This document shows, one piece after another, positions 2,008-7,060 of a stretch of 64,000 nucleotides of DNA. The notes beneath the pieces were generated by a model. That model was given only the letters and a program-made list of their open reading frames with translations. It was not told the origin of the DNA and searched no databases. The stretch lies in contig NC_015726.1 in NCBI RefSeq assembly GCF_000219215.1, positions 992,001 through 1,056,000 of the forward strand, read 5' to 3'. A program made the position numbers and the translations under genes. The stretch is from Cupriavidus necator N-1 (GTDB taxonomy: Bacteria; Pseudomonadota; Gammaproteobacteria; Burkholderiales; Burkholderiaceae). The first letter of the stretch is position 1. Every line of letters starts with the position of its first letter.

Positions 2008-2592
2008 TCAGGTCTTGTCGCGCGCCTCTTGCCACTTGTCGACGCGCACGCGCGGCGCGGCCGCCAACTGGCCGAGCAGGCCGGCGGGCGTGTCTGCCAC
2101 ATGCAGCAGGTCGGCATGCACCTGCTTCATGAAGCCTTCCTGCACCGCGTGCGCAAGGAAACCCAGCAGGCCGTCGTAGAACCCGGCGACATTCAGCAGG
2201 CCCACCGGCTTGTCGTGGTAGCCCAGCTGCAGCCAGGTGAAAGTCTCGAACAGCTCTTCGAAGGTGCCCACGCCGCCCGGCATGGCGATAAAGGCATCGG
2301 CACGGTCGGCCATCATCTGCTTGCGCTCGTGCATGTTGCGCACCACGTGCAGCTCGGTCAGGCCGCGGTGGCCGACTTCCTTCTGCATCAGCGCGTCGGG
2401 GATGATGCCGATGGCGCTGCCGCCGTGTTCCATCACGGCGTCGGCGACGATGCCCATCAGGCCCACCTTGCCGCCGCCGTACACCAGCGCCAGGCCGCTT
2501 TCGGCCAGGGTGCGGCCGAGCATGCGCGCGCCTTCGGCGTATTCAGGACGGTTGCCGGGGCTGGACCCGCAATACACGCAGACAGATTTCAC
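2008..2592 (-). CDS. LOG family protein (TIGR00730), probable nucleoside 5'-monophosphate phosphoribohydrolase
   Basis: 194 residues starting KSVCVYCGSSPG, with GGGKVGLMG and the family-defining PGGVGTFEELFE motif that carries catalytic residues. LOG enzymes release the base from cytokinin- or purine-type nucleoside monophosphates. The start is a GTG at 2592 that overlaps the stop of the upstream TetR gene (GTGA, 4 bp), so the two genes are translationally coupled. The frame stays open further upstream, but that part is a shadow of the TetR gene. Confidence 0.88.
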   Translation of the reverse strand: MKSVCVYCGSSPGNRPEYAEGARMLGRTLAESGLALVYGGGKVGLMGIVADAVMEHGGSAIGIIPDALMQKEVGHRGLTELHVVRNMHERKQMMADRADAFIAMPGGVGTFEELFETFTWLQLGYHDKPVGLLNVAGFYDGLLGFLAHAVQEGFMKQVHADLLHVADTPAGLLGQLAAAPRVRVDKWQEARDKT

Positions 2593-3290
2593 TTTGCTTC
2601 CTTTGCCGCGTCGGCTGCGGCCTTGGCTGCCGCGTAGTCGCGCGCCAGCTGGTCGAATGCATCCCGGGCCCGGCCGCGCAGGTAGGGCGCCAGGATCGAG
2701 AAGATGTGGTAGCTCGATCCGTGCAGGTAACCGCGGATCTGCTCGGGGTCGTTGTACTGGCGCGGATGCTGCACGAACTGGAACGACAGCCAGTAGGTGG
2801 CGATCACCACCATGTTGGTGCAGATGGCCTCGACCTGATCGGGCGTGGCTTCCATCTCGCCGTCTTCGATGAACTGCCGGCAGATCTCGTGCGCAAAGCG
2901 CTTCTTCTGCTCGACGATGCGCTTGAAGTTGGTCTCCAGCATCCGGTTGCGCGCCAGCAGGTCGTTGATGTCGCGGTACAGGAAGCGGTAGTTCCACAGG
3001 AACTCGGACATGTACTGCAGGTAGCCCCAGCTTTCGTCCAGCGTGGCCTTGTGGTCGTCCGGCATCTTCAGGCGCCGCTCCATCTCCTGCTCGAAGCGCA
3101 CGAAGATGGAGTTGATGATGTCGTCCTTGTTGCGGAAGTGGTAGTAGAGATTGCCGGGGCTGATCTCCATGGCTTCCGCAATCGTCGTGGTGGTGACGTT
3201 GGGTTCGCCGACTTCGTTGAACAGGCGCAGCGAGACGTCGAGGATGCGGTCCCTGGTGCGGCGGGGGCCGGTTTGCGGTTTCGGTTCCAT
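2589..3290 (-). CDS. TetR/AcrR family transcriptional regulator
   Basis: 233 residues. The N-terminus is a TetR helix-turn-helix: RDRILDVSLRLFNEVG, TTTTIAEAMEISPGNLYYHF, then RNKDDIINSIF. The remainder is a helical ligand domain rich in aromatics (WGYLQYMSEFLWNYRF) and a charged alanine-rich tail. It is coupled by a 4-bp overlap to the LOG-family gene. The 103 bp upstream contain no repeat I can call as its operator. Ligand and targets are unknown. Confidence 0.88.
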   Translation of the reverse strand: MEPKPQTGPRRTRDRILDVSLRLFNEVGEPNVTTTTIAEAMEISPGNLYYHFRNKDDIINSIFVRFEQEMERRLKMPDDHKATLDESWGYLQYMSEFLWNYRFLYRDINDLLARNRMLETNFKRIVEQKKRFAHEICRQFIEDGEMEATPDQVEAICTNMVVIATYWLSFQFVQHPRQYNDPEQIRGYLHGSSYHIFSILAPYLRGRARDAFDQLARDYAAAKAAADAAKEAK

Positions 3291-3393
3291 GGGCGTCCGG
3301 GCGATCGGTGCGATCGGTAAGTCGGGGGGGCAGGGTAGCGATTATAAGCAATCGGCCCGGCCACCCCGTCCGGCATCCCCGGCGAGTGACGGA

Positions 3394-3879
3394 TCAGCCC
3401 GCCAGCGTCCGCACCCAGTGCACCACGTGCGGCCCGGCGATGGCGGCCCAGGTGCCACCGCACAGCACCAGCGCCAGCATCACCGCGGCGCTGCCGAAAT
3501 CCTTGGCGCGCTTGGACAGGTTGTGCCGCTCCAGCGAAATGCGGTCGATCGCCGCCTCGACGCTGGAGTTGAGCAGCTCCACGATCAGCACCACCAGCAG
3601 CGTGGCCAGCAGCAGGATGCGCTCGACCACCCCCACCGGCAGCAGGAACGCCCACGGCGCCAGGATTGCCACCAGCGTCAGCTCCTGGCGGAATGCGCTT
3701 TCCTCGAGCACCGCATAGCGCAGGCCCGACAGCGAATTGATGGCCGCATGCCAGGCGCGCGTCAGGCCGCGATTGCCCTTGTGGGGATTCTGCTCGATCG
3801 AATACTCAGCGCTCTGGACTGCCTGCGGCGGCCTCTGTAGAGGCGGGTCGGACGGCAGTTCCGGATGGGGTTTGGACAT
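3394..3879 (-). CDS. dgkA: Diacylglycerol kinase (DgkA type)
   Basis: 161 residues, longer than the roughly 120 of E. coli DgkA because of a proline-rich N-terminal extension of about 40. Core motifs are present: EESAFRQE near the first helix and ELLNSSVEAAIDRIS followed by KRAKDFGSAAV at the active site, with three hydrophobic segments. It phosphorylates diacylglycerol to phosphatidic acid in the inner membrane. The chosen start (ATG at 3879) lies inside the 3' end of the glycosyltransferase gene, a 74-bp overlap. Together with the two upstream genes it could recycle diacylglycerol made by phospholipid breakdown. Confidence 0.9.
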   Translation of the reverse strand: MSKPHPELPSDPPLQRPPQAVQSAEYSIEQNPHKGNRGLTRAWHAAINSLSGLRYAVLEESAFRQELTLVAILAPWAFLLPVGVVERILLLATLLVVLIVELLNSSVEAAIDRISLERHNLSKRAKDFGSAAVMLALVLCGGTWAAIAGPHVVHWVRTLAG

Positions 3880-4927
3880 GGTTTTGCGGGGCGGATTGGG
3901 CCGCTGCGCTGTCCCGGCCTGGATTGCCGGGAGCGAACGGCCGAAGATGGGCCAGGAACTGCTCGGAGGCGGCGCGCCAGGAGAACCGCTCGGCGTGGGC
4001 ACGGGCCGTGGCGCGGTCGATGCGCAGCGCTTCCAGGCAGGCTTCGCGCAGGTCTTCGTGCATCACGCCGGCGGGGCTGTCGCCCAGCACATCGATCGGG
4101 CCGGTGACCGGATAGGCGGCCACGGGCAGCCCGCTGGCCAGCGCTTCCAGCAGCACCAGCCCGAAGGTGTCGGTGCGGCTCGGGAACACGAACACATCAG
4201 CCGAAGCATACACCCGGGCCAGTTCGGGCTGGCTCAGCACGCCCAGGTAGTTGGCGCCCGGATAGCGCGCGCGCAGCCCCGACAGCGCCGGGCCGTCGCC
4301 GACCACCCACTTGGAGCCGGGCAGGTCCAGCGCCAGGAAGGCCTCGACGTTCTTTTCCACCGCCACGCGGCCCACGTAGAGGAAGATCGGGTGGGCGGTG
4401 TTGAGCACATTGGGACGCTGCAGCGTGAACACGTCCAGGTCCACGCCGCGCGTCCACAGCACGGCGTTGGTGATGCCATAGTGCCGCAGGTCGTCCAGCA
4501 CCACCGGGGTGGGCGCCATCACTGCCCGGGCCGGGCCGTGGAACCAGCGCAGGAAGCGGTACGTCCATGCCAGCGGGATGCCGAAGCGTGCCTGCACATA
4601 TTCCGGAAAGCGCGTGTGGTAGGCCGTGGTGAAGGGCAGCCGGCGGCGGATCGCGTGGCGCCGCGCGGCCAGGCCCAGCGGCCCTTCGGTGGCGATATGC
4701 AGGGCGTCCGGAGCGAAGGCTTCGATGCGGCGCTGCACGCGCGCCGCCGGCAACAGCGACAGGCGGATCTCGGGGTAGGTCGGGCACGGCACGGTGCGGA
4801 ATTCCAGCGGCGTGATCATGTCGACCGTGTGGCCCATGGCCTCCAGTTCGCGGCGGGTGGACTTGAGCGTGCGCACCACGCCGTTGACCTGCGGTTCCCA
4901 GGCATCGGTGACGATCAGGATCTTCAT
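3806..4927 (-). CDS. GT4-type glycosyltransferase, probable glycolipid synthase
   Basis: 373 residues with a GT-B fold. The N-terminus KILIVTDAWEPQVNGVVRTL is typical of MgtA-like glycosyltransferases, and the donor-site region is FPSRTDTFGLVLLEALASG. Related enzymes glycosylate diacylglycerol or phosphatidylinositol lipids. The last 50 or so residues are Ala/Pro/Ser-rich and overlap dgkA. The start is taken at 4927 (MKILIV); an upstream in-frame ATG at 4957 adds ten less conserved residues. It lies between the phosphoesterase and dgkA on the same strand, which suggests a lipid pathway; the acceptor is inferred. Confidence 0.85.
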   Translation of the reverse strand: MKILIVTDAWEPQVNGVVRTLKSTRRELEAMGHTVDMITPLEFRTVPCPTYPEIRLSLLPAARVQRRIEAFAPDALHIATEGPLGLAARRHAIRRRLPFTTAYHTRFPEYVQARFGIPLAWTYRFLRWFHGPARAVMAPTPVVLDDLRHYGITNAVLWTRGVDLDVFTLQRPNVLNTAHPIFLYVGRVAVEKNVEAFLALDLPGSKWVVGDGPALSGLRARYPGANYLGVLSQPELARVYASADVFVFPSRTDTFGLVLLEALASGLPVAAYPVTGPIDVLGDSPAGVMHEDLREACLEALRIDRATARAHAERFSWRAASEQFLAHLRPFAPGNPGRDSAAAQSAPQNHVQTPSGTAVRPASTEAAAGSPER

Positions 4928-4988
4928 GCAGCCTCCTCGGGCGCGGTGGAAGGGCAATGCGGATGGGGCAAAGGGTGGCAGGCCGGAA

Positions 4989-5966
4989 TCAGCCCGCCAC
5001 AGCGGCGCGGCGACGGCGGCGCGTGGCCGGGGCCGGCGCGTCCAGCAGCGTGGTCCAGTAGACGATCTTCAGCTCGCCTTCGATGGTCTCGACGAGCGCC
5101 GACAGGCTTTCGACCCAGTCGCCGTCGTTGCAGTAGAGCTGACCGTTGACCTCGCGGATCTCGGCCTTGTGGATATGGCCGCAGACCACGCCGTCGCAGC
5201 CGCGGCGGCGCGCTTCATCGACCATCGCGCTCTCGAAGGCGCCGATGTAGTTGACCGCGTTCTTGACCTGGTGCTTGAGGAACTGCGACAGCGACCAGTA
5301 CGGGAAGCCCAGGCGCGCGCGCAGCCGGTTGAAGTGGCGGTTCAACGCCAGGATCACCGTGTACAGCGAATCGCCCAGGTAGGCCAGCCAGCGCGCGTGC
5401 TGCACCACGCCGTCGAACAGGTCGCCGTGCACCACCCACAGCCGGCGCCCGGTGGCGGTGACGTGCACCGCTTCTTCGCGCACGGTGATGTCGCCGAAGG
5501 CCATGCCGTCGAACTGGCGCGCGGCCTCGTCGTGGTTGCCGGGCACGTAGATCACTTCAGTGCCCTTGCGCGCCTTGCGCAGCAGCTTCTGCACCACGTC
5601 GTTGTGGCTTTGCGGCCAGTACCAGCCGCGGCGCAGCTGCCAGCCGTCGATGATGTCGCCGACCAGGTAGAGCTGCTCGGACTCGTTGTGCTTGAGGAAG
5701 TCCAGCAGGTAGTTGGCCTGGCATCCGGGCGTGCCCAAGTGGATGTCCGACAGCCAGATGGCGCGGTAGCGCTGGATCGGGTGCGGCTCGGGCGGGTAGG
5801 TCTGCTGCTGTTCGCGCTGGGGCGCCAGCGCGGCGGCATCGAGGGCCGGCGCCATAAAGGCGGTCAGCGGCGCGGCGCTGCCGCTCTCAGGGCTGCGGCG
5901 CAGCCATTGCGTCAGTTGCGCGGTCTTCGACAGATACCCGCGGGCAGATCGGATTGCTTGCACCAT
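4989..5966 (-). CDS. Calcineurin-like metallophosphoesterase (COG2908; LpxH/PlcP-like)
   Basis: 325 residues. After an extension of about 65 residues come all the dimetal phosphoesterase motifs: SDIHLG, GDIIDGW, PGNHD, HGDLFD and CGHIHKAE. COG2908 includes UDP-2,3-diacylglucosamine hydrolase (LpxH) and the PlcP phospholipase C-like enzymes used for lipid remodelling under phosphate starvation. This protein is longer than classical LpxH (about 240), and its neighbours are a glycosyltransferase and dgkA rather than lipid A genes. I therefore favour the PlcP role. A PHO-box-like array lies 44-83 bp upstream of the start. Confidence 0.82.
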   Translation of the reverse strand: MVQAIRSARGYLSKTAQLTQWLRRSPESGSAAPLTAFMAPALDAAALAPQREQQQTYPPEPHPIQRYRAIWLSDIHLGTPGCQANYLLDFLKHNESEQLYLVGDIIDGWQLRRGWYWPQSHNDVVQKLLRKARKGTEVIYVPGNHDEAARQFDGMAFGDITVREEAVHVTATGRRLWVVHGDLFDGVVQHARWLAYLGDSLYTVILALNRHFNRLRARLGFPYWSLSQFLKHQVKNAVNYIGAFESAMVDEARRRGCDGVVCGHIHKAEIREVNGQLYCNDGDWVESLSALVETIEGELKIVYWTTLLDAPAPATRRRRRAAVAG

Positions 5967-6009
5967 GGCAGTCCCGGTTGCGGCGATGGCTGCATTCAGC
6001 CAGCCTGCG

Positions 6010-6049
6010 ATGACGGTGCCGTGACGGAAACATGACTGACATATGAATC
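6010..6049 (-). promoter_or_regulatory. PHO-box-like direct repeat array (PhoB binding)
   Basis: Read on the plus strand, four 7-mers recur at exact 11-bp intervals: ATGACGG (6010-6016), GTGACGG (6021-6027), ATGACTG (6032-6038) and the weaker ATGAATC (6043-6049). The complement of the PHO-box half-site CTGTCAT/C is A/GTGACAG, so the first three each differ at one position. Orientation is toward the minus-strand phosphoesterase at 5966. A poor -10-like CTGAAT lies about 10 bp after the array, as expected for an activator-dependent promoter. Confidence 0.7.
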
Positions 6050-6079
6050 GTGGCGGAAGTGGAACAGCCCGGGCTAGTG

Positions 6080-7060
6080 TCAGTGCCCGCGGGCGGACAG
6101 CTCTGCGAGGGCGTCGAGTACCGCACGCACGGCCGCGGGATGGCGCAGCAGCGTGACGTGGCCAATGCCGGCCAGCGGGATATGCCCGGCGCCATCGAGC
6201 CAGCCGGTGCAGGGCGGCCCGGCGATCGAGTCATGCCAGCTGAAGATCGAGATCATGCGCGCGCGGCGGCGCGGGGTTTCCGCGGCGGCGAGCGCGCGCA
6301 GCCAGGCGCTGCCGCAACGCATCTGGCGCGCATTGGGGCCGCCGCCAAAGCGCGCCAGCGCGCTGCCGTGGTGGGGGCTGCCCAGCGTCACCACGCCGGC
6401 GCAGACGTCTTCGTCGCCCGCCAGCTGCAGCGCGGCGCGCGCGGCCAGGCCGCCCATGCTGTGGCAGACCAGCAGCGGCGGGCGCCCGGCTTCGGCTGTG
6501 ATGCGCCGCATGGCGGCCAGCAGCGCGCGTGCGTAGTCGTCGATATCGCCGAACACCGGCTTGAGCTCGATCCCTTCGCAGCGGTAGCCGGCGGCGGCCA
6601 GCGCCGGCTGCATGTCGAGCCAGATGGCCTGCCCGCAGGCGTAGCCATGCACCAGCAGCACCGGCGGGGCGTCGCGGCCAGGCAGGGCGTCAAGCGGTGC
6701 GGCAAAGGGCGCGTGCGCGCGGAATGGCTGCAGCCAGTCGAACATGCGCAGGACGGCCACGCACTCGGCCGCAAAGCAGCGCAACGCCTCAGGCAGGCGC
6801 AGCGGCCGGCGCGTGGCGGCGAGTTCAACCGGTGGTGCGGGCGGGTGATTGCCGCGCCCGACCCACAGACCGCGCCCGCTCAGGGCGAAAGCGAAGGCAA
6901 TGCCGCAGGCGAAGCTGCCGAGGATGGCCGCCACGCCGGCGGCGACCGCGCCGGGCCATGGCCAGCCGCCCAGCCGCACCAGCCCGGCGGCGATGCCCAG
7001 CGCGGCGGCTGCCTGCAAGGTCACCGCAAGGCGGCGGATGCCGGCAGCCGACAGGCTCAT
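6080..7060 (-). CDS. Alpha/beta-hydrolase, lipase/PGAP1-like
   Basis: 326 residues. An N-terminal membrane region (about residues 1-60, two hydrophobic stretches) precedes an alpha/beta-hydrolase domain. That domain has the oxyanion segment LLVHGYACG, the nucleophile elbow VCHSMGGLAAR and a downstream VVTLGSPHHG typical of lipases. A late His in GIGHVTLL completes the likely triad. The ATG at 7060 overlaps the stop of the RDD gene (ATGA), showing coupling. Substrate unknown; probably a membrane-anchored esterase or lipase. Confidence 0.8.
   Translation of the reverse strand: MSLSAAGIRRLAVTLQAAAALGIAAGLVRLGGWPWPGAVAAGVAAILGSFACGIAFAFALSGRGLWVGRGNHPPAPPVELAATRRPLRLPEALRCFAAECVAVLRMFDWLQPFRAHAPFAAPLDALPGRDAPPVLLVHGYACGQAIWLDMQPALAAAGYRCEGIELKPVFGDIDDYARALLAAMRRITAEAGRPPLLVCHSMGGLAARAALQLAGDEDVCAGVVTLGSPHHGSALARFGGGPNARQMRCGSAWLRALAAAETPRRRARMISIFSWHDSIAGPPCTGWLDGAGHIPLAGIGHVTLLRHPAAVRAVLDALAELSARGH

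Follow-up and report, generated by a model that had tools for sequence, protein, structure and literature searches.

A probable PhoB-activated plcP-agt-dgkA operon for membrane lipid remodelling in Cupriavidus necator N-1

Described PlcP modules and the Cupriavidus locus

Modules in which the phosphate (PHO) response controls a phosphoesterase, PlcP, together with a glycosyltransferase, Agt, are already established (PMC8528852; PMC4796936). Here, we propose that a module of this kind, extended by a diacylglycerol kinase gene, lies in a 64-kb stretch of the 8.48-Mb, four-contig genome of Cupriavidus necator N-1 (contig NC_015726.1, positions 992,001 to 1,056,000; this whole stretch is “the window”, and coordinates refer to it unless they carry the prefix G000). 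Judged from the sequence, its genes plcP, agt and dgkA very probably form a PhoB-activated operon for membrane lipid remodelling in low phosphate. A sequence-only reading of the window had already taken the locus for a PHO-controlled lipid-remodelling module, and this is now supported by the homology of the proteins to PlcP and Agt1, by a separate lpxH elsewhere in the genome, by a conserved register of PHO units, and by the layout of the promoters at pstS and olsB.

In Pseudomonas aeruginosa, the PA3219-PA3218 pair has been tied to glycolipid formation under phosphate stress by proteomics and by expression in Escherichia coli (PMC8528852). It shares with our locus the plcP-agt order, an upstream Pho box and similar proteins (PlcP is 55% identical over 237 amino acids to the PA3219-type PlcP, and Agt 53% identical over 327 amino acids to the PA3218-type Agt1), but it lacks dgkA, the next gene being cyaB on the other strand. 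P. aeruginosa also has a second glycosyltransferase, PA0842 (PMC8528852), whereas we found no second close Agt in the C. necator genome (next match, E 7.8e-9). The Sinorhizobium meliloti PlcP (L105) degrades phospholipids under PhoB control, the resulting diacylglycerol feeding a betaine lipid (PMC3972451); it is 50% identical to ours over 258 amino acids, but the next gene listed encodes an MFS transporter rather than a glycosyltransferase. In the Type 2 arrangement of marine heterotrophs agt lies downstream of plcP, as here, and plcP clusters carry Pho boxes; the account of the six arrangements in marine isolates mentions neither the dgkA that is present here nor olsB (PMC4796936). Finally, a Pho box precedes olsB in Burkholderia sensu lato (PMC7814305), as in our genome, where olsB lies near ppx, ppk1, phoR and phoB; plcP and agt are absent from the olsB passages of that study.

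We found no description in the literature of the Cupriavidus module or of the dgkA/olsB arrangement, though a B. cenocepacia phosphorus-stress proteome may already list plcP and agt, and we claim no priority for Burkholderia. What is new is the linkage to dgkA, together with the linkage to olsB in Polynucleobacter-type loci.

Identity of the phosphoesterase and the glycosyltransferase

The sequence-only reading had described three genes on one strand, for a phosphoesterase with every metal motif, a GT4 glycosyltransferase and DgkA, and the minus-strand open reading frames and their Pfam domains bear this out (Table 1). In the order of transcription, plcP is followed after a 61-bp gap by agt, whose start we set to the ATG at 4927 (the longest open reading frame opens instead with a TTG at 4957), and then by dgkA, whose start falls inside agt, giving a 77-nt overlap on which that reading was silent. 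The metal motifs likewise stand: residues D74, H76, D104, N144, H145, H180, H264 and H266 are invariant in an alignment of nine PlcP sequences.

Table 1. Features of the plcP locus, in window coordinates
Feature	Position	Strand	Basis or location
plcP (COG2908-type metallophosphoesterase)	4989..5966	minus	Pfam Metallophos/Metallophos_2
agt (GT4 glycosyltransferase)	3806..4927	minus	Pfam Glyco_transf_4 + Glycos_transf_1
dgkA (prokaryotic diacylglycerol kinase)	3394..3882	minus	Pfam DAGK_prokar
PHO box, four 7-mers in 11-bp register	6010..6049	minus	sequence reading, pattern searches, conservation in relatives
Extended -10-like element TGG-CTGAAT	5994..6002	minus	10 bp past last PHO unit
TetR-type regulator	2589-3290		beyond dgkA

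Is the phosphoesterase a PlcP or an LpxH? Two curated LpxH models score it below their cut-offs (29.3 of 190.35 bits and 36.9 of 134 bits), and it is not the genome's only LpxH candidate, as the earlier reading had allowed it might be: a separate lpxH lies at G000:C3:1236176-1236886 (240.7 bits, over the 190-bit cut-off) beside cysE-like and cyclophilin genes named by eye. PlcP is 26% identical to this LpxH over 120 amino acids, and carries GNHD in place of its GNRD. We reject an LpxH identity on the strength of the scores, the separate lpxH and the low identity to it.

Our yardsticks were taken for the characterised proteins from their neighbourhoods. In a plasmid record of P. aeruginosa, azoR3 and cyaB flank the PA3219/PA3218-type pair. 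The S. meliloti gene comes from a 3.7-Mb record that bears the label pSymB; a gene for a LuxR-type regulator is 2.8 kb away, with an acyl-homoserine-lactone synthase gene after it. We take PA3217, PA3223 and SMc00171 to be the locus numbers and sinR/sinI the names that belong to these neighbourhoods, SMc00171 being presumably the S. meliloti PlcP itself. By our measure the two PlcP yardsticks share 47% identity, 46% being stated for PA3219 and S. meliloti PlcP (PMC8528852). By sequence comparison, then, the phosphoesterase is a PlcP, closer to the characterised PlcP than to LpxH, and a predicted phospholipase C-like enzyme releasing diacylglycerol.

Its closest named relatives are from Cupriavidus (90% identity to C. 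necator A5-1). The sequence-only reading expected such a gene usually to be annotated as LpxH, and so it proved among the matches listed: the named rows of the best 120 of 8000 scored matches mostly read UDP-2,3-diacylglucosamine diphosphatase, hydrolase or LpxH, as do most annotated plasmid matches. Separately, about 64 residues (5775-5966, minus strand) precede the phosphoesterase domain, a stretch far longer than in the Pseudomonas, Sinorhizobium and Polynucleobacter proteins of the same alignment and perhaps a membrane-binding helix.

In E. coli, PA3218 gave monoglucosyl-diacylglycerol and not a glucuronate lipid (PMC8528852). For this reason the Agt product is predicted to be glucosyl-diacylglycerol, and agt to encode an Agt1-like diacylglycerol glucosyltransferase, with glucose the most likely sugar.

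The PHO box and its conserved register

Read on the minus strand, the PHO box consists of a weak unit, GATTCAT (6049-6043), and three better ones, CAGTCAT (6038-6032), CCGTCAC (6027-6021) and CCGTCAT (6016-6010), just as the sequence-only reading had it: three near-consensus 7-mers and a weaker fourth at exactly 11 bp. That reading did not mention the -10-like hexamer CTGAAT (5999-5994), which is preceded by TGG and from which transcription would start at about 5987. The pattern GTCAT-6-GTCAY-6-GTCAT, with up to two mismatches, has two overlapping matches in the window, both at the PHO box (shuffled windows: mean 0.16, maximum 3, at least two matches in 1/100). Genome-wide, GTCAY-6-GTCAY-6-GTCAY with up to one mismatch gives 12 matches against 2 for the reversed-pattern control, and the plcP box is one of only four places (five rows) where the match is exact. 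A sigma-70 scan of positions 2500-6300 found no better or internal promoter, a weak negative given that shuffles expect only 0.4; such a lack is expected if the PHO box stands in for the -35 element.

Conservation was scored in the best 80 of at least 586 confirmed plcP matches, a sample hence biased to close kin, of which 78 contribute box counts (L033 and L077, having no upstream DNA, are omitted). The scorer sums three units (maximum 21, threshold 15) over a stretch from 300 bp upstream of the plcP match to 20 bp into it. Upstream of plcP, 71/78 relatives reach 15 at 11-bp spacing, while spacings of 8, 9, 10, 12, 13 and 14 bp do so in 1, 7, 1, 4, 0 and 1 of 78; within the plcP gene, taken as control, none of 78 does so at 11 bp and at most three at any spacing. 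The repeats are thus conserved in related genomes, a check that the earlier reading had called for. Among the 71 passing relatives NNNAAT stands exactly 10 bp past the best triple in 39 and at +21, one unit further, in 23, with at most seven at any other offset. A wider sample, the best 30 of 79 plcP places across the order with the window's own included, has 22 loci reaching 15 at 11 bp and at most three at other spacings. The scorer gives 19/21 upstream of the PA3219-type gene, where a Pho box has been published (PMC8528852).

The genome has the regulators that such a box would need. PhoB and PhoR pass TIGR02154 (346 of 296 bits) and TIGR02966 (452 of 334 bits), and their genes belong to a pstSCAB-phoU-phoB-phoR row, past which come ppk1, ppx and olsB (pstC, pstA, pstB, phoU, ppk1 and ppx named by eye). 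Upstream of pstS and olsB (starts set where the PstS model begins and at the methionine of MRDLPTP) are at least two PHO units followed after 10 bp by TAGAGT or TACATT. Two units, 10 bp and TANNNT together match three places in the genome (olsB, pstS and C3:3702293), the reversed pattern none; the hexamer at plcP departs from TANNNT. At olsB the 11-bp register reaches threshold in 24 of 30 loci (the best 30 of 45 matches, own included) and other spacings in at most three. The six that fall short include some from Polynucleobacter-type genomes (G033, G050), the olsB of G033 sitting in the plcP row instead. The genome's OlsB-like protein scores 166 of 320 and 163 of 350 bits, and that of a Polynucleobacter locus (L084) 183 of 350, with OlsB models still the best matches to the genome's protein; such sub-cut-off scores make OlsB the closest named family rather than a certified membership. 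No Pho box was found at the best OlsA-like gene (C3:2967394), where the best triple in 300 bp upstream reaches only 11/21.

Several further sites came to light. The third PHO-plus-(-10) match (L115:1501-1532; G000:C3:3702293-3702324) lies upstream of an open reading frame that by eye resembles a periplasmic-binding-protein gene. A near-consensus box with TTGTCAT, CTGTCAT and ATGTCAT every 11 bp (L005:1501-1527; G000:C1:1298957-1298983) stands 43 bp before the ATG of an EAL-domain-like gene (by eye), without a -10 element at the usual 10-bp spacing, and marks a possible link from phosphate to cyclic-di-GMP. An exact three-unit match (L009:1501-1527; G000:C4:157239-157265) has no large gene visible just downstream. 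At our locus, an alpha/beta-hydrolase (lipase-like) gene lies directly upstream of the PHO box (6080-7009, minus strand); it is matched in 12/80 relatives (Cupriavidus, Ralstonia, one Burkholderiaceae metagenome-assembled genome, Pandoraea and Pigmentiphaga), with no match in the Burkholderia-type loci examined.

Gene order, alternatives and proposed mechanism

The gene order is itself widespread: agt directly follows plcP in 77/80 relatives, and dgkA comes next in 63/80, five of the 17 without it (L069, L072, L073, L076, L080) ending less than 1 kb past the plcP match. Ten of the 80 loci have plcP-agt-dgkA-olsB on one strand (L074, L077, L078, L082-L086, L092, L095), and three have plcP-agt-olsB (L087, L089, L091). 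We also surveyed 150 genomes drawn evenly across the order, the window's own included (plcP at E<=1e-40, agt at E<=1e-60): where Agt is present, its gene lies 18-168 bp downstream of plcP on the same strand in 35/40 genomes and elsewhere, on another contig or the other strand, in 5/40. On a Mitsuaria plasmid, plcP lies beside ppk1 and a Ppx/GppA gene.

One Polynucleobacter hirudinilacicola locus (L084:4137-10795) is a compact phosphorus-economy locus built around plcP-agt-dgkA-olsB. Upstream and divergent are a PPK2 gene (over cut-off) and one for an OlsA-like acyltransferase (128 bits, under the 300-bit cut-off), and downstream is a convergent ppx-like gene (by eye). Its plcP ATG follows a -10-like hexamer by about 8 nt, which makes a leaderless transcript possible.

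Could the phosphate link be incidental? The phosphoesterase might be a second LpxH or another lipid A or lipopolysaccharide enzyme, and the glycosyltransferase an envelope polysaccharide enzyme. Public records do often carry the LpxH or diphosphatase name, and among solved structures the PlcP profile comes closest to those of LpxH (E 8.4e-9), but scores of 29 of 190 and 37 of 134 bits, an over-cut-off lpxH elsewhere, GNHD against GNRD and the conserved PHO register make this extremely unlikely. That the repeats bind another regulator, or sit in a constitutive promoter answering to no phosphate signal, is very unlikely too. Repeats may be conserved for other reasons, and the three good units differ from CTGTCAT at position 2 (one also at position 7); against this, pstS in this genome shows the identical register and the 10-bp spacing, the scorer gives 19/21 where a Pho box is published, and the scan of 2500-6300 found no -35-like element. 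Several results do weigh against a PhoB-activated remodelling operon. The reverse strand of the same upstream regions reaches the 11-bp threshold in 15/78 relatives; the threshold is missed in 7/78 relatives and in 8/30 loci of the order-wide sample; and a strict consensus, compared locus by locus with composition-matched random sequence, gives p<=0.05 in only 50/78 (p<=0.01 in 34/78). At the PlcP gene of S. meliloti the scorer gives 15 and at the Mitsuaria plasmid gene a sub-threshold 14, the plcP -10 hexamer is poor (3/6 match to TATAAT), and PhoB and PhoR fall under the PRK10161 and PRK11006 cut-offs (299 of 471 and 358 of 390 bits). Converting diacylglycerol to phosphatidate also costs a phosphate, partly reversing the saving. 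Lastly, 77/150 genomes of the order have plcP and only 40/150 Agt, which implies that plcP often works with another partner or none.

A narrower objection accepts PHO-controlled plcP-agt remodelling and treats dgkA as a neighbouring general diacylglycerol kinase gene with its own expression, serving for example the diacylglycerol left by osmoregulated glucan synthesis. We consider this fairly unlikely. Counting for it, the genome has no PF01219 match other than dgkA (101 bits against a cut-off of 22.3), which so probably has a housekeeping or general role too; many loci of the Paraburkholderia and Caballeronia type have an estimated gap of about 170-370 bp from agt to dgkA; and no dgkA was found after agt in Thiobacillus-type loci that extend far enough, such as L068, L071 and L075. 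Counting against it, the overlap with agt recurs in the seven Cupriavidus relatives (estimated at 73-91 nt), and dgkA still follows agt in 12 loci that extend more than 3.5 kb beyond and match neither the TetR gene nor the LOG-like gene (named by eye) found beyond dgkA here. The kinase gene stands between agt and olsB in 10/80 loci, and the promoter scan adds a weak point in that it found no sigma-70-like promoter of dgkA's own. In P. putida BIRD-1, DagK is listed with PlcP, OlsA and OlsB as PHO-dependent, though the proteins missing from the phoBR mutant do not include it by name (PMC5082522). Membership of dgkA in the plcP-agt unit is thus supported by the overlap, by its persistence without the TetR and LOG neighbours and by its position before olsB.

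In light of a PhoB-activated plcP-agt-dgkA operon being the favoured reading, how might it work? From the anatomy and conservation of the promoter, phosphorylated PhoB would bind the four half-sites in place of a -35 element and bring polymerase to the weak -10 element that lies 10 bp past them. By homology, PlcP would then cut the head groups from phospholipids, freeing the phospho-alcohol and leaving diacylglycerol, which Agt would glycosylate, most likely with glucose. DgkA, translated from its start within the end of agt, would phosphorylate surplus diacylglycerol, recycling it to phosphatidate, and may thereby both keep diacylglycerol from building up, like a valve, and provide a return route once phosphate is back. 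A separate PhoB site would drive the olsB-like gene, with ornithine lipids as a second phosphorus-free substitute.

Our findings bear on how these genes are named. They often carry the label LpxH in Cupriavidus, Ralstonia, Burkholderia and their relatives, and are probably phosphate-starvation phospholipases. Renaming them leads to the prediction that many bacteria of soil and fresh water make phosphorus-free membranes, among them Cupriavidus grown industrially under nutrient limitation. The dgkA/olsB linkage offers a simple and testable way to ask how glycolipid and phospholipid share diacylglycerol.

One study names Actinobacteria, Gammaproteobacteria and Cyanobacteria as groups with plcP expression, and states that remodelling seems to be less marked in freshwater than in marine settings (PMC13086504). 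A broader proposal, for which we see the chances as even, is that Betaproteobacteria carry a self-contained PlcP-Agt variant, with the diacylglycerol kinase in the same PhoB-driven transcript as a valve for glycolipid and phosphatidate flux, and that in Polynucleobacter-type freshwater bacteria plcP-agt-dgkA-olsB and a divergent OlsA-like gene gather the whole phosphorus-free lipid programme in one locus. If this is true, common freshwater heterotrophs would remodel their membranes as marine ones do.

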